Of a stretch of 64,000 nucleotides of DNA, positions 21,517 through 42,911 are shown in pieces (position 1 is the first letter of the stretch; each line of letters begins with the position of its first letter). The position numbers were made by a program, and so were the translations under genes. Location: NCBI GenBank assembly GCA_015295945.1, contig DVED01000071.1, forward strand, positions 1 to 64,000, read 5' to 3'. The notes beneath the pieces were generated by a model, which did no database searches, was not told the DNA's origin, and saw only the letters and a list, made by a program, of their open reading frames with translations. The DNA is from Oscillatoriales cyanobacterium M59_W2019_021 (GTDB lineage Bacteria; Cyanobacteriota; Cyanobacteriia; Cyanobacteriales; Geitlerinemataceae).

Positions 21517-22173
21517 ATGACAATTCCCTTACTCATTCTGGCATCGGCTTCTCCGGCACGCCGCCAACTCCTCAAAAGTGCGGGGATCGATCCCATCGTT
21601 TGTCCCAGCGATTTGGACGAGTCCCAAGTGCAACTCGGCAATGCCGTGGCACTGGTTCAAACCTTGGCACAGCTTAAAGCCGAAAGTATAGCCGATCGCA
21701 TCCGAGACGGGAAAGTTCCGCCATTGTGGGAGGAAGACACTCCACCACCCGAATCGATGCTAATTTTGGCGTGCGATTCGATGTTGCAGTTGGGAGATGA
21801 AATTTTCGGCAAACCCGCCAATGAAGGGGAAGCGATCGCGCGTTGGCAGCGAATGCGCGGACAAGTTGGCGATTTATATACCGGACATGCTTTAATCGAT
21901 TTGGCACGCAATACCACGTTGGTCAACTGTCAAGTGACGCGGGTTCATTTCGCACCCGTTACCGATCGCCAAATCGCAGCCTACGTCGCCACCGGAGAAC
22001 CCCTGAACTGCGCCGGATGCTTTGCGATCGACGGCAAAGGCGGTTTGTTCGTGGAAAAACTGGAAGGGTGTCACACCAATGTTATCGGTTTGAGCTTGCC
22101 GTTGTTGCGGCAAATGTTATCGGAATTGGGCTACGAACCGACGGATTTTTGGCGATCGACCTTTCTGGGTTAA
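21517..22173 (+). CDS. maf: Maf-like nucleoside triphosphate pyrophosphatase
   Basis: Hydrolyses canonical or modified NTPs to NMP and pyrophosphate, acting as a house-cleaning enzyme. The 218-residue protein opens with the Maf signature [19 protein letters not shown] (about 5-23). It has the catalytic acidic segment [19 protein letters not shown] (about 84-102) and C-terminal [31 protein letters not shown]. An insertion around [19 protein letters not shown] lengthens the region before the catalytic Asp, as in other cyanobacterial homologues. It probably shares a transcript with cyanoP (29-base gap). Cytoplasmic. Confidence 0.92.
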
Positions 22174-22555
22174 GAGGTTGTCGATCGACTCTTTCTTCAG
22201 AACGATCGGAGTTCCCAAATCGGCAGGCAATGGCAAATTGGAGATTGCCCGTTGAGGAAAAATCTCAATCGTTTCCGCCATCGCTTGCCCTACTAGCGAC
22301 TAGCAAATACTGTCCGCAGAACGCCACAATTCTCGATCGTACAGACAGTTCAAAATCTGGTCGATCTGGTGATATAACGTCAAAGTTTTCTGATATTATG
22401 TAGCCATTACCCGTTAGTGATTGGCAATAGAATCGGTGAAGGGAGTTGCTTTTGTTCCCTTTCCGGTTCTCATTTCTTCTCGAGAGCAATTTGCGTGCGT
22501 TTTTTCGAGCAAATTTTTTTCCTCTACACCCATTTTTCATAATTTCGCAACATTT
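22174..22555. other. Gene-free region upstream of the WD40 gene
   Basis: These 382 bases carry no convincing ORF or repeat. A short CCATTACCCGTTAG run near 22404 resembles the STRR heptamers. It should hold the WD40 gene promoter. Confidence 0.35.
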
Positions 22556-23824
22556 ATGAAATCCAAACTCTGGTCTTCTCTTTTCGCTCTGGGTGCGACC
22601 TTGGTATTAGCAGAGCGGGCGATCGCCTTTTCCCCCAATTCTGCTAACCGAAACACAGAAATCGTCCAGTCTCAACTGCCAACCGACGCACAACTCGTTA
22701 ACAGTTTCCAACTGTTTGGCGAACCGACGATGTGTCGGGGGTTTAGTTTGCCTGCTTTTGCCGTCAGTTCCGACAGTCAATCTTTTGCCGTAATGGCACA
22801 CGGTTTCACAGAACGATTGTGCGGTGGCGGCGAAAGTAATTTGACCTTGTGGAACCTGGCAACGGGCAAAAAAATTAAAACGTTGTTAGAAGGAGGCGTG
22901 GGTGAAGCCTTCTTGATGTCTCCGCCTTTCAATGAAGCCGAACCGAACGATATTACTGCTTTAGCGGGAGACTTAGCGCACGATTTAGTCTTTACTCCCG
23001 ACGGCAAAATGTTAGTTGGGGCGCTATCAGAAATGACGATTAAACTTTGGGATAGCAAAACTGGGGAAGTTCTGCAAACGTTATCGGGACATCGAGCGGC
23101 TGTTCGATCGATCGCCATCACTCCCGACGGTCAAACCTTAATCAGTGGCAGTTCCGATAAAACCATTAAATTCTGGGATTTGAAAACTGGAAGAGTCACT
23201 CGAACGCTAACTGAAACTTATGGCATTCAAGAAATTATTCTCTCGCCCGACGGTCAAAGTCTCCTCAGTATTGCCAACGACAACGAATTCGATCCAACCG
23301 ATGCCAAAATTAATTTGTGGGATGTTAAAACGGGCAAACTTATTCGCGATTTTTACCCCTCCCGCGAGGTCTTGAGACCCATTATTTTCAGTCAGGATAG
23401 CAAAACGATTATCAGTGCGAGTCCGGACAATAGCATTAAATTGTGGGACGCTCGCAAGGGCATCCGCATGCTAACCTTAAAGAGTCATACCGATCGCCTC
23501 CACTGGCTCGCTACGACACCAGACGGTCTTTTCTTAGCCAGTAGCAGCTATGACGGTCAGGTCAAACTGTGGAATTTTCCCGATCGAAAATTTATTCGGA
23601 CGATTCCCATAGAAACAGGCTTTGCGCTTTTAAAGTTTAGTCCGGATGGCAGAATTTTGGCGATCGGAACGGGTGGGGACGTACAATTGTGGAATTGGCG
23701 CATTCCCGAAAAATATCATTCGATCGCGGGTGATTGGGCGCTAGACTTTACCCTAGACGGACAAACCGTACTGGTTAACAATTCGGCAACCTTTAACATC
23801 GACGTTTGGCGGTATCGAAAATAG
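22556..23824 (+). CDS. Secreted WD40 repeat protein
   Basis: A 422-residue beta-propeller protein. The ATG at 22556 begins a signal peptide (MKSKLWSSLFALGATLVLAERAIA). At least six WD40-like repeats follow, each with the LWD or LWN strand end, for example TIKLWDSKTGEVLQTLSGH, TIKFWDLKTGRVTRTL, KINLWDVKTGKLIRDF, SIKLWDARKGIRMLTLKSH and QVKLWNFPDRKF. This repeat number could close a single propeller with the N-terminal NLTLWNLATGKKIKTL segment. It is probably a periplasmic scaffold. The upstream 45 residues of the ORF in the track are not used because they delay the signal peptide. No partner is evident nearby. Confidence 0.9.
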   Translation: MKSKLWSSLFALGATLVLAERAIAFSPNSANRNTEIVQSQLPTDAQLVNSFQLFGEPTMCRGFSLPAFAVSSDSQSFAVMAHGFTERLCGGGESNLTLWNLATGKKIKTLLEGGVGEAFLMSPPFNEAEPNDITALAGDLAHDLVFTPDGKMLVGALSEMTIKLWDSKTGEVLQTLSGHRAAVRSIAITPDGQTLISGSSDKTIKFWDLKTGRVTRTLTETYGIQEIILSPDGQSLLSIANDNEFDPTDAKINLWDVKTGKLIRDFYPSREVLRPIIFSQDSKTIISASPDNSIKLWDARKGIRMLTLKSHTDRLHWLATTPDGLFLASSSYDGQVKLWNFPDRKFIRTIPIETGFALLKFSPDGRILAIGTGGDVQLWNWRIPEKYHSIAGDWALDFTLDGQTVLVNNSATFNIDVWRYRK

Positions 23825-23903
23825 GAAGAGAGCTTTCTTGAGCGGGGGAAGCCGGGGAAGCCGGGGAAGAAGAAAGCAAAAGCGCGAAAGCGCAACTAGC
23901 AAT
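23825..23903. repeat. CTCCCC/GGGGAAGCC repeat tract, filled-site copy
   Basis: GAGCTTTCTTGAGC, then GGGGAAGCC units, then GAAGAAAGCAAAAGCGCGAAAG and CGCAACTAGCAAT. The same series, in the same order, occurs at about 42764-42852, where it continues straight into TTACAAACCCC without the MITE. Confidence 0.8.
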
Positions 23904-23905
23904 TA

Positions 23906-24041
23906 TAGCAGTCGCCATACCAGTTAGGACAAATTTGGGGTAGGGGCGAAGCATTTGCCCGAAAGCCTCATACACGAACCCATAAGAATTCTGCAAATGC
24001 TTCGCCCAATCTTCATGTCCTAATCGAAGTGGCGACTGCTA
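23906..24041. mobile_element. 136-base MITE with TA target duplication
   Basis: A non-coding element with long imperfect terminal inverted repeats of about 50 bases, beginning TAGCAGTCGCC and ending GGCGACTGCTA. Further matching blocks are AGGACA and GGGCGAAGCATTTGC. It is flanked by TA on both sides (23904-23905 and 24042-24043). The paralogous repeat at 42764-42865 contains the uninterrupted junction AGCAATTACAAACCCC with a single TA, so insertion with TA duplication can be read directly. TA duplication fits mobilisation by an IS630/Tc1-type transposase, which is not encoded in this window. Confidence 0.88.
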
Positions 24042-24043
24042 TA

Positions 24044-24096
24044 CAAACCCCAAACCCCAAACCCCCAACACCAAATGACCAATGACAAATCACCCG
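24044..24096. repeat. STRR tract after the MITE
   Basis: CAAACCC-type heptamers are followed by AATGACC/AATGACA units, directly next to the stop codon of the LCP-family gene at 24097. Confidence 0.7.
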
Positions 24097-25596
24097 TTAC
24101 CAGCGATTTTCTAGAGAGCGATCTTCTCGACCAGAACGATTTTCAAAAGAGCGATCCTCTTCCAACGAACGTTCTTCTTCTAACGATCGATCGTCTAAAG
24201 GTTGCTGCCTCAACCAATCCCGCCCTACCTGAATGGTAATATCGGAATTGATCGCTCCGGTACTCTCGATGCGAACTTCTCCAAGTCCCAATTCTTGCTG
24301 AAGGGCTTCGGCACTGTCGATATCTCCCTGTTGGGCGACGATGCGGGTGATTGCCAGGGGTTCTGTCCATGGCTGGTCAACCGTAATATTCTGATATCCC
24401 TCTTTTTCCAATTGCAGGACTAAATTATCGATCGCCCCCGGTTCGTCGGTACTATCTTGAATAGCAATGCGGATATAAGAATCGTCGGTTTTCCAAACTT
24501 TTCTGCCCCGATAGCCGCGATCGAAATGCTCCGCCATCATTTCATCGATCTGTCCGTAATTCGGCAGCCAGTAGCTCGGATCGTTGGGAGTTACAGGAGA
24601 ATTAAACTCTCCGGGCAACATCAACATTTGCGTATTTTCGCGAGAAATATTCGAGGCAAATCCGACCAGTGCCGCGATCTCTTCCAAACTAAGATTGGTA
24701 TCGATATATTCCTGAATCACCGACAGAATTTGAGGGAGTTTCACCACCGTTCCCGGACTGAGGGTTTGTTCCATCAACGCTCGCATAAAGGTTTGCTGGC
24801 GCTGGATGCGACCGATATCGCCCAAGCCATCGTAGCGGTAACGCAGGAATTGCAAAGCTTGTTCGCCGTTGAGGCGCTGTTCTCCTTCTTTAAGATCGAT
24901 ATACAGGTGCTGGGTTTGGTCTGTATATTTCATGTCCTTGGGAACGTAGACCGTCACCCCTCCGAGGGCGTCGATCAGTTTTTCCACCGCCATGATATTA
25001 ATCCGCACGTAGCGATCGATCCGCACCCCATCCAACAATCGGCTCAGGGTTTTCGCACTCAGTGCCGGACCGCCAACGCGATTGGCTTCGTTGATTTTCG
25101 TTTCCCCAATGCCTTCCACCCACGCATAAGTATCGCGGGGCACGGACAGCAGAGAAACCTTCTGGCTTTTGGGATCGAACCGCACCAGGAGCATACTATC
25201 CGACAACCCTTCCAGGGAGTTGACGGTCGGATCGTAACCCGACTCGGTCAGCGGCAAATCCAGATCGGACGAAAGCACCTTCGTCCCCAAAATGAGGATA
25301 TTCACCGGTCGAGTCAGTTCCGGCAGCCGCAGGTTCATTTTGGCAATATCATCTTTGCTGAAAACGGCTTGTTCTTCCGGAGTTAACCGGGACTGCATCA
25401 GCGGCGTACTCGATAGGGAAACGGCAAATAACGCACCAGCCGTTGCCGAAATCATCGCCACGCCACCTAAGCCTAAACCCAGTCCCAACCAGCTTTTCAT
25501 ACCGAATTTAGCTATTTTAGGGGGAGATGCTGGAGATTGCGGAGATGGGACACGAGATTGAGAGTGACGGTTTTGAACTGGCACTGGATTCCTCAC
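24097..25596 (-). CDS. LytR-CpsA-Psr (LCP) family protein with LytR C-terminal domain
   Basis: LCP proteins transfer polyprenyl-phosphate-linked glycans to peptidoglycan or other acceptors. After a basic, Pro/Ser-rich cytoplasmic tail comes one membrane helix (WLGLGLGLGGVAMISATAGALFAVSL). The LCP domain follows with VNILILGTK, SDSMLLVRFDP, VSLLSVPRDTYAWV (phosphate-binding Arg), INEANRVGG and LQFLRYRYDGLGDIGRIQRQQ. A second domain near the C terminus (SYIRIAIQDSTDEPGAIDNLVLQLEKEGYQNI) resembles LytR_C. The longer ORF starts with TTG inside the next gene, so the GTG at 25596 is proposed; ATG 25500 is the alternative. The acidic/basic tail ERSLEEERSLEEDRS at the C terminus is low complexity. 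Confidence 0.9.
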   Translation of the reverse strand: MRNPVPVQNRHSQSRVPSPQSPASPPKIAKFGMKSWLGLGLGLGGVAMISATAGALFAVSLSSTPLMQSRLTPEEQAVFSKDDIAKMNLRLPELTRPVNILILGTKVLSSDLDLPLTESGYDPTVNSLEGLSDSMLLVRFDPKSQKVSLLSVPRDTYAWVEGIGETKINEANRVGGPALSAKTLSRLLDGVRIDRYVRINIMAVEKLIDALGGVTVYVPKDMKYTDQTQHLYIDLKEGEQRLNGEQALQFLRYRYDGLGDIGRIQRQQTFMRALMEQTLSPGTVVKLPQILSVIQEYIDTNLSLEEIAALVGFASNISRENTQMLMLPGEFNSPVTPNDPSYWLPNYGQIDEMMAEHFDRGYRGRKVWKTDDSYIRIAIQDSTDEPGAIDNLVLQLEKEGYQNITVDQPWTEPLAITRIVAQQGDIDSAEALQQELGLGEVRIESTGAINSDITIQVGRDWLRQQPLDDRSLEEERSLEEDRSFENRSGREDRSLENRW

Positions 25597-25642
25597 ACGC
25601 GATAAACTTGAAAACGTTGGTTGATAGGAGCCTCGCTCCGAC

Positions 25643-26026
25643 TTAAGGCAGACGATCGCCGATCCGACTGATTCCCGGCAGCCAGAGGGGTTTATTCCGC
25701 CACAGACGCACCATGAGACCGAAGTTGACGACAAAATACGTGGTCGTCAGCACGCTATTGGCGATCCACAAGGGAAGATTCGGCAATTCCGAATACTGCA
25801 CGCCCGTTCCTAACAAAATGTAACCTGAAAGCCACATTAACGCTAGAGCGATCGCCAAACGACCGATCGATTTCTCCTGCGGCGTTCCTTTGCCCCGAAA
25901 CAACATCCACCACGCCGGGAAAAACCCGAACACGGGGATCAAATAGATAAACAGTGTCACACGGTTTAATTTGTCATTTGGTATTGGGGGTTTGGGGTTT
26001 GGGATTTGGGGTTGGTTATTTGTCAT
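25643..26026 (-). CDS. Small membrane protein with a repeat-derived N terminus
   Basis: A 127-residue protein with three to four hydrophobic segments (TLFIYLIPVFGFFPAWWMLF, SIGRLAIALALMWLSGYILL, LWIANSVLTTTYFVVNFGLMVRLW). It looks like a conserved cyanobacterial membrane protein of unknown function. The first 19 residues, MTNNQPQIPNPKPPIPNDK, are translated from AAATGAC and CCCAAAC heptamers, so the STRR upstream has either supplied the start or been annexed by the ORF. A GTG a little further in (before TLFIYLIPV) is the conservative start. The LCP gene follows 46 bases downstream on the same strand. Confidence 0.75.
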   Translation of the reverse strand: MTNNQPQIPNPKPPIPNDKLNRVTLFIYLIPVFGFFPAWWMLFRGKGTPQEKSIGRLAIALALMWLSGYILLGTGVQYSELPNLPLWIANSVLTTTYFVVNFGLMVRLWRNKPLWLPGISRIGDRLP

Positions 26027-26157
26027 TCGTCATTTGGGGTTTGGGGTTGGTTAGTTGTTAGTTGTTAGTTGTTAGTTGTTTCTCTCCCCCTGCTTCCCTT
26101 GCTCCCCCTGCCTCCCCTGCTCCCCCTGCTCTTTTGATCCGGAACTTCCTCACCTCC
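26027..26157. repeat. Composite STRR/CTCCCC tract
   Basis: GGGTTTG units, five TTAGTTG heptamers and TTTCTCTCCCCCTGC run into repeated CTCCCC(TGC) units. The first part matches the cluster at about 48-108 almost base for base. It fills the gap between the subtilase and the small membrane protein gene. Confidence 0.8.
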
Positions 26158-27786
26158 TCACTCAGGCACTGTCCACCACGCCAGGGCGTAGGGTTGGGTG
26201 GGTTCGTTAACTTGTCGGCGGTATTCGACGCGGATTTTGTAGCGTCCGGTGGCGGGGATTGGGTGGAAGATGTGTTCGACGCTATCAACGGAACTGGTAG
26301 AAGACCAAATGCTGTTGGTGGGGTCGTCTTCGTCGGCGGGCATCAGATAGAGGTTGAGATCGTTCAAACCGCGATCGCGAAAGGTTTCCCCCTCATCGTA
26401 CTCCCCATTTTGGTTGGTATCCTCGAGATCGACAATGCGATCCCAAGCGAGGGTCGCGGCGACGAAACTGCCCTGTTTCAGGGGCGCTTCGATAATGTAA
26501 TCGCGATACTCCGTGGCGGTGACTTCGCCGTAGTTCCAGCCGATGGTGGGAACGGGATCGGTGGGTTTCCACTGACCGGGACTGAACTGCTGATAGGCGC
26601 GGAAGGCGTTGAGGTGTCCGGTTCCCATGTCGCCGTTGAGGGGAATTTCGGGATCTTGGAAAGCGTCCGATTCCAGCCAGTTTTTGCCGCTTTTATCGAT
26701 AATCGTGCGAGTCATACCTTGGCGCAAGCCATTGCCGCCATCTTGTACTTTATCGGCAGCGTTGAGCAGAACGGCTTTCATCACCTCGTGACGGCGGGCG
26801 TCGGGGCTCCAGTTGGGTTGTGCGGCACTGAGTTGACGATCGCCGTATTCTTGTAATAAGGCAACCGTGGCGACGACGTGGGGTGATGCAAAGCTGGTTC
26901 CCGTATTTTGGGAAACGCTGCCATCCTGGTTGAGCAAATCGACATTGCGACCGGGGGCGAGCAAACTCACCAAGCGGCGTCCGTCGATGTTGGTTTCTAG
27001 TCCCACTAAGCGACTGTCGGCTCCGGTGAAGACGCTGCCCAGGTTGGAAACGTCTACGTAGCTGAAGACCCCATCTTGAATGCGGCTGAAAGCAACGTTA
27101 ACCCCGTTGAAGTTATCGGTAGGGATGGGAATGCCGCCCGTGCCTTGGTTTCCGGCGATCGAATACAGAACGTTATGCACCCGTGCCGACCAATCCACGC
27201 ACAGGGTCAGCAAGGCGTTGCCGTCGAGTTGGGCTTCGGGTCGGGGATCGAGGGATAGGGGTTCGCCAAAGCTGAAGTTGATCGCTCGCACGTCGTTGCC
27301 ATTTTGCAGGGCGACGTGTTGGGTGGTCAGACATTCTTGAGCTTGGCGGTTCGTACCCATATCCAGGGCGGCGCCAGCGGAGTAGAGGCGAGCTTCCGGG
27401 GCGACTCCCGGTGCGGCTTTGGCTTCGCTAATCATCACCCCGGCGACATTTTGGGCGTGACCGTCGAGGTTGGTATCGCTTTGGGCGCGGCTGTTGCGAA
27501 AAAAGACCCCCGTCGGTGCGGTGCCGCGATCAGGTGGGGTATCCTTATCTAACCCGAATTTGGCGGGTCTGCCAATTTCCACTTGTCCGATGGCGATTTT
27601 GCGACCGAGGAGATTGTAGGGTTCCTCGTGCAGGCGCAGGGCATCGATTCCCGCTTCGCCAACGGACGTTCCCACATCTCGAGAGGTTAGGGAAACGGCG
27701 AATCCGGGAGTGGGAGCTAAAGTGCCTATCAGACCGAAGGTACTGGCGATCGAAGCGAGTTGGCGCGCGATTTTGAGTTCAATCAA
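26158..27786 (-). CDS. Secreted S8 (subtilisin-like) peptidase, catalytic Asp replaced
   Basis: A 542-residue subtilase-like protein with a hydrophobic start (ARQLASIASTFGLIGTLAPTPGFAVSL), probably a signal peptide. The histidine motif is present as LDGHAQNVAGVM and the serine motif as TGTSFASPHVVATVALL. The usual aspartate motif (VAVIDTG) instead reads IAIGQVEIGRP, so Glu stands where Asp is expected. The C-terminal 150 residues (LKQGSFVAATLAWDRIVDLEDTNQNGEYDEGETF...) look like a beta-sandwich with a calcium-type DxNxNGxYDEGE loop. The start is TTG at 27786, eight bases after a GGAG. It may be active with a non-standard triad or act as a binding protein. Confidence 0.85.
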   Translation of the reverse strand: MIELKIARQLASIASTFGLIGTLAPTPGFAVSLTSRDVGTSVGEAGIDALRLHEEPYNLLGRKIAIGQVEIGRPAKFGLDKDTPPDRGTAPTGVFFRNSRAQSDTNLDGHAQNVAGVMISEAKAAPGVAPEARLYSAGAALDMGTNRQAQECLTTQHVALQNGNDVRAINFSFGEPLSLDPRPEAQLDGNALLTLCVDWSARVHNVLYSIAGNQGTGGIPIPTDNFNGVNVAFSRIQDGVFSYVDVSNLGSVFTGADSRLVGLETNIDGRRLVSLLAPGRNVDLLNQDGSVSQNTGTSFASPHVVATVALLQEYGDRQLSAAQPNWSPDARRHEVMKAVLLNAADKVQDGGNGLRQGMTRTIIDKSGKNWLESDAFQDPEIPLNGDMGTGHLNAFRAYQQFSPGQWKPTDPVPTIGWNYGEVTATEYRDYIIEAPLKQGSFVAATLAWDRIVDLEDTNQNGEYDEGETFRDRGLNDLNLYLMPADEDDPTNSIWSSTSSVDSVEHIFHPIPATGRYKIRVEYRRQVNEPTQPYALAWWTVPE

Positions 27787-42666: not shown

Positions 42667-42911
42667 TGAGTCTTAGCTCGTCGGATGCACTTTCTATTAT
42701 CCCTCTTTACGGAGAGGAGTGGCAGGAGTTATGAAGGCAGAAGGCGCAAGAAAGCAGAGGGAGCTTTCTTGAGCAGGGGGAGAATGGGGAGCAAGGGAAG
42801 CCGGGGAGGCAGGGGAAGAAGAAAGCAAAAGCGCGAAAGCGCAACTAGCAATTACAAACCCCAACGACAAATGACAAATGACAAATGACAAACCCCAAAT
42901 GACTACAAAAA
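42667..42911. repeat. CTCCCC/STRR tract, MITE-free (empty site) copy
   Basis: GAGCTTTCTTGAGC, GGGGAGAATGGGGAGC, GGGGAAGCCGGGGAGG, then GAAGAAAGCAAAAGCGCGAAAG, CGCAACTAGCAATTACAAACCCC and AATGACA heptamers (about 42867-42895). It is collinear with 23825-24090 but lacks the 136-base MITE, and shows the undisturbed target TA at the point where the MITE sits in the other copy. The direct repeat proves the two tracts share ancestry. Confidence 0.85.

Follow-up and report, generated by a model that had tools for sequence, protein, structure and literature searches.

Nezha, reportedly described by Zhou et al. in 2008 as an active MITE of cyanobacteria, resembles the element reported here in being a MITE of a cyanobacterium. 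For ISY100 (ISTcSa), an IS630/Tc1-mariner element of Synechocystis PCC 6803, a length of 947 bp, imperfect ends of 24 bp and a doubled TA have been described; its transposase binds the 24-bp ends, and mini-elements that retain 30 bp at either end are moved (PMC2170065). Many MITEs of 77-541 bp, mostly intergenic, have been reported from the single genome of Anabaena sp. 90 and were classified as type II, since a search of that genome had revealed no insertion sequence with matching ends (PMC3542288). Lastly, Anabaena variabilis (A. variabilis) carries GTAG-tagged REPs inside longer, TATA-ended palindromic inverted repeats (PMC3733652).

The element described here is located in a window of 64,000 nucleotides, the whole stretch of DNA analysed, from Oscillatoriales cyanobacterium M59_W2019_021 (the host). 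From our point of view, it is very probably a non-autonomous IS630-type transposon, namely a MITE of type I that belongs to a subgroup of IS630/Tc1-mariner. The element and ISY100 share the doubled TA target, and the ends of ISY100 alone suffice for movement, whereas ISY100 is autonomous with a single ORF (PMC2170065). Unlike the MITEs of Anabaena sp. 90, the present element has a matching IS630 subgroup outside its host genome (PMC3542288). With the repeats of A. variabilis, its core has a GTAG-tagged palindrome in common, but the sequences differ and the identity of the core as a REP is putative (PMC3733652).

The element and its empty target site

In its context, the element reads AGCAATTA-(TAGCAGTCGCC...GGCGACTGCTA)-TACAAACCCC at 23898-24051 (Table 1). 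It is short, without coding capacity, and bordered by imperfect inverted ends of 26 bp with a TA adjoining each side. The window contains two occurrences of the tip repeat TAGCAGTCGCC and no more, namely those at the two element ends. The fold of the element is far more stable than that of shuffled sequences (-67.4 kcal/mol, z -8.9), as is expected of nested inverted repeats, and a search of 22000-26500 against Rfam gave no matches at E up to 1.

Table 1. Features of the window at the filled and the empty site
Feature	Position	Strand	Remarks
Left neighbour gene, WD40 repeat protein	22421..23824	+	converging on the element
Host tract interrupted by the element	23827..24093	+	flanks 23827-23905 and 24044-24093
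Left TA target copy	23904..23905	.	
MITE, 136 bp, without coding capacity	23906..24041	+	sole copy within the window (model R1)
Left end, 26 bp	23906..23931	+	TAGCAGTCGCCA (tip and outer box), six variable bases, TTAGGACA (inner box)
Inner palindromic core	23940..24007	+	GTAG tag 23940-23943; stem arms 23944-23958 and 23993-24007
Right end, 26 bp	24016..24041	-	layout as left end, read inwards
Right TA target copy	24042..24043	.	
Right neighbour gene, LytR_cpsA_psr family	24097..25734	-	converging on the element
Paralogous tract without the element	42758..42889	+	single TA at 42853-42854

The original prediction had proposed a 136-base MITE with terminal repeats between two TA copies, and a paralogous tract of the same window with identical flanks and a single TA. 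Both are borne out by the sequence, as the flanks of the element, joined with one TA, align unbroken to the paralogous tract with a score of 145, which drops to 115 with the element kept in. The junction within this alignment is identical, ungapped and free of mismatches (GGGGAAGAAGAAAGCAAAAGCGCGAAAGCGCAACTAGCAATTACAAA), and up to 300 random window stretches of 176 bases, drawn with the surroundings of the two sites skipped, reached a maximum score of 26. In the window, the empty junction reads AGCAATTACAAACCCC at 42847-42862, about 19 kb from the element. Since there are indels between the two tracts outside the junction, they represent a paralogous repeat without being exact duplicates. As a dispersed intergenic repeat, the tract has 44 related places in the genome (E up to 1e-3) and contains tandem units of 7 and 9 bases. 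Among the 30 tract loci fetched, four show AGCAATTACAAACCCC without the element (L051, which is the window tract, L060, L066 and L070), and the empty form is hence found in more than one copy. The empty site is therefore genuine, but the paralogue in the window is not necessarily the immediate source. Tandem repeats of 7 and 9 bases are frequent between genes throughout the window (40 rows) and are of the short tandem repeat kind (STRR) known from cyanobacteria.

It could be argued that the short tract is the product of a precise excision and not a never-occupied target, as sequence comparison within one genome gives no direction by itself. However, excision of the Tc1/mariner type usually leaves a footprint of end bases, no such footprint is present at the empty junction, and the identical junction recurs at three other tract loci. 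We consider a precise excision improbable, and insertion of the element into a formerly single TA is the reading on which the following sections build.

Copies in the host and IS630 elements with matching ends

A BLAST search with the element resulted in 40 matches in the genome, itself included, the best other match showing 82% identity over 109 of the 136 positions. A covariance model built from nine copies returned 60 hits, which correspond to 48 distinct places dispersed over the host genome; as the copies are divergent, recent activity cannot be claimed. Judged by eye, TA is present on both sides at the model's borders in 11 of the 48 places (C47, C111 at 53363, C52, C192, C154, C202, C140 at 56998, C112, C160 at 84141, C84 and C165, where C denotes a contig). 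The other 37 are partial, are located at contig ends, have a missing or unclear TA on at least one side, or are cores without IS630 ends. We further scanned for single ends, requiring bases 3-12 (8 of 10) and the inner box (7 of 8) and leaving the flank free. TA was present just outside 38 of the 42 distinct ends found in fetched host DNA (background 3.9% of dinucleotides), a set derived from loci fetched for matching and thus a non-random sample of the genome, although the flank played no part in the choice; the other four ends read CA, TC, AG and GA. Across the class, the whole-element model at E 1e-6 matched 9 of 388 genomes, including that of the host.

Some copies are incomplete in a particular way. 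At C140:61671, C1:39794, C164:32829, C146:1699 and C128:45769, copies with the B type of end defined below keep the left end and the core and miss the right end; they stop at or near the 3' border of the core (AGTCTTC), and their flanks differ. At three loci (L266 at C111:12894, L283 at C25:25460 and L271 at C193:10785), the left end appears to have been replaced by, or joined to, AAGTAAT, a tandem repeat of 7 bases, as if recombination had taken place between short tandem repeats and MITEs.

The end pattern TAGCAGTCGCCA-N5-GTTAGGACA, with up to 2 mismatches, was found in 128 of the 388 genomes and 33 times in the host, whereas a single match, in G325, was seen in the table for the backward control of the 26-base pattern. 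Among 117 examined loci that match IS630, 62 carry an end pair of the form TAGC-8-N6-TTAGGACR, in which the conservation of the inner and tip motifs is partly by construction, as the search required them. Most of these pairs are about 940-1040 bp apart, and TA is found on both sides of 58 of the 62 elements. At a score of at least 11, the end finder recovered 59 of the 62 on the true sequence and none on reversed or complemented sequence. Many of the 55 loci without a pair are truncated or more distant.

In four elements from other cyanobacteria (L174, L176, L218 and L219), the right end equals the tip in the window at 12 of 12 positions and agrees at 21-23 of 26 overall. The left ends read TAGCAGTCGTCA in L218, TAGCAACCGCCA in L174 and TAGCAACT in both L176 and L219, and in the latter two they differ from the tip in the window. 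The IS630 transposase family NF033545 of NCBIfam matches ORFs of L136, L174, L218 and L183, and DDE_3 of Pfam (PF13358) matches L174, so that the proteins of end-matching elements show the transposase type that is characteristic of IS630/Tc1-mariner elements. Ends of autonomous insertion sequences that match the MITE, as is typical of type I, are thus present in other genomes and not in the host. In its draft assembly of 4.99 Mb and 212 contigs, no transposase of the end-matching subgroup was found, the sole match at E up to 0.01 being the gene on C133, which belongs to the only IS630 found in the host. This gene was rejected as a partner, as its element ends in TAGCGTTTCTCA; a cognate transposase in the same genome is not required of a MITE.

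Together, the filled and the empty site, the TA-bordered ends and the IS630 elements with the same ends support the IS630/Tc1-type transposition that had originally been postulated. The expectation of near-identical copies flanked by TA held with regard to their number and the TA, and failed with regard to near-identity, and the expected full-length IS630 element with the same ends exists in other cyanobacteria, while none was found in the host assembly.

Mechanistically, the 26-bp ends, composed of TAGC, an outer box of eight bases, six free bases and TTAGGACR, would be the sites at which a clade-B IS630 transposase binds and cuts. Such an enzyme, supplied in trans, would cut out a copy, which would then be joined into a TA of the repetitive intergenic tract between the two converging genes, and gap repair would double the TA. 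If the element behaves like ISY100, it would be mobilised as soon as such an enzyme is provided. The steps backed by data are the layout of the ends, the doubling of TA, the tract without the element, the TA-bordered copies and, in other cyanobacteria, full-length IS630 elements that have the same ends. As no such transposase was found in the assembly, the family now looks stranded, or it relies on a passing or unassembled element.

The palindromic core and further alternatives

Palindromes similar to the core and tagged with GTAG also occur in the host without IS630 ends (C185, C72, C58, C160 at 17931, C164 at 40992, C117, C27 and C102), and the core thereby shows the trait of GTAG-tagged REPs that tag and palindrome also stand alone. 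In addition, three Y1_Tnp genes are present in the genome. One could hence imagine that the element is a REP-like or regulatory hairpin repeat, dispersed through recombination or through the activity of a tyrosine (RAYT) transposase, in which case the doubling of TA would be incidental. However, TA borders 38 of the 42 ends, the ends are common to the element and IS630 elements, and none of the three Y1_Tnp loci carries the core in the fetched flanks, where it would be expected for a RAYT. We regard this explanation as slightly less probable still than a precise excision. A RAYT/REP origin of the core itself is no more than a lead, because no Y1_Tnp locus of the host has the core nearby.

Two further observations concern such palindromes. 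At L343 (C41:2323), a Y1_Tnp (RAYT-like) gene is situated near a different GTAG palindrome (GTAGGGTGCGTGACGGC, locus position 2011), which is possibly a REP family of its own. By eye, the loop of the solo core at C72:2482 resembles, in a comparison with C51:1 and C15:10660, the reverse complement of the loop of an A-ended MITE, as if it had been flipped between the stem arms.

That the element is a decayed full-length IS630 whose gene was lost at the site is the least credible alternative: its ends do match full-length elements, but its inside is a palindromic core common to many copies of similar length, with no visible remnant of a transposase gene. The type-I MITE is the reading maintained below.

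A clade-specific end code and the possible exchange of ends

Within the IS630 subgroup, bases 5-12 of the ends track the transposase clade, while TAGC and TTAGGACR are constant; the stretch near each tip that differs reads GCTACGCG in clade A and AGTCGCCA in clade B. In the transposase tree, a branch with support 92 sets apart all 28 rows with an outer box of the CTACG type, and another with support 99 unites 20 of the 22 rows of the GTCGCC/GTAGCC type (B). The two remaining B-labelled rows (L249 and L256) constitute a third group together with four others. The end label changes three times on this tree versus a shuffled mean of 19.9, with the labels defined after the sequences had been seen and near-copies inflating the clustering. 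The tree was calculated by a quick method from 54 of the 62 elements, after removal of the C-terminal tail, whose coding sequence lies within the right end in clade A. Four elements were omitted due to short ORFs (L189, L190, L241 and L246) and four by hand due to poor or odd end pairs (L130, L185, L229 and L232). Within clade B, the four elements that carry the tip of the window branch off basally and do not group with the other 16 rows.

Clade-A elements show a peculiarity of their own, as two overlapping ORFs meet at an A run (L136 and L126, at about 1410-1430 in each locus), which suggests programmed frameshifting. Their right end encodes the last residues of the protein.

Both kinds of ends are found on MITEs of the host, namely the B type on the window copy and on C111, C154, C202 and C203, and the A type on C47, C192, C140 at 56998 and C160, and the inside is common to both. 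Elements of clade A, with TAGCGCTACG ends, were rejected as partner of the window copy on account of the outer box; they do fit the second host subfamily. The cores of two A-ended and three B-ended copies are 73-82% identical between the types, and in A/B pairs without the window copy 23-26 of the 34 positions of the non-palindromic loop match, the loop of the window copy being further off (16-17 of 34). On the core tree, which has few strong branches, the A/B label, set by eye, requires one change. This tree comprises 25 cores chosen by eye from the 48 places, each with at least one recognisable end; of two near-identical contig-end pairs, one was kept.

Between the two clades, the transposases agree at only about half of their residues (49-54% to the L136 protein), and an exchange of ends therefore explains a common core that carries both kinds more readily than joint descent does. 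The occurrence of one related MITE core with the ends of both clades accordingly suggests, at the level of sequence, that ends have been exchanged. Alternatively, a single transposase may tolerate both kinds of ends. Two copies at contig ends (L026 and L027) bear a mixed end, TAGCAGTACGCG. Following the notion of an exchange, one could tentatively speculate, at somewhat less than an even chance, that the MITE family passed from one transposase partner to another when about eight bases near each tip were replaced, with TAGC, the TTAGGACR box and the inside retained. In that case, these outer bases would serve the transposase as a clade-specific address, and a MITE could switch transposases by having it rewritten.

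No description of these ends was found in the literature searched, mainly freely accessible papers, and a query with the sequence itself led, among the matches listed, to unrelated papers only. Overall, the element is a real but ordinary mini-transposon of a known kind, with a filled and an empty site. To the original prediction, the analysis adds which IS630 subgroup is concerned, that this subgroup is missing from the host assembly, and a hint that ends were exchanged. The locus provides a clean record, within one genome, of the insertion of an IS630-type MITE, and connects an orphan MITE family of cyanobacteria with an IS630 subgroup that can be defined and whose end code can be read. Should the eight outer bases indeed represent a clade-specific recognition site, the sequence alone would suffice to pair orphan MITEs with their transposases, and the switching of partners would become testable.
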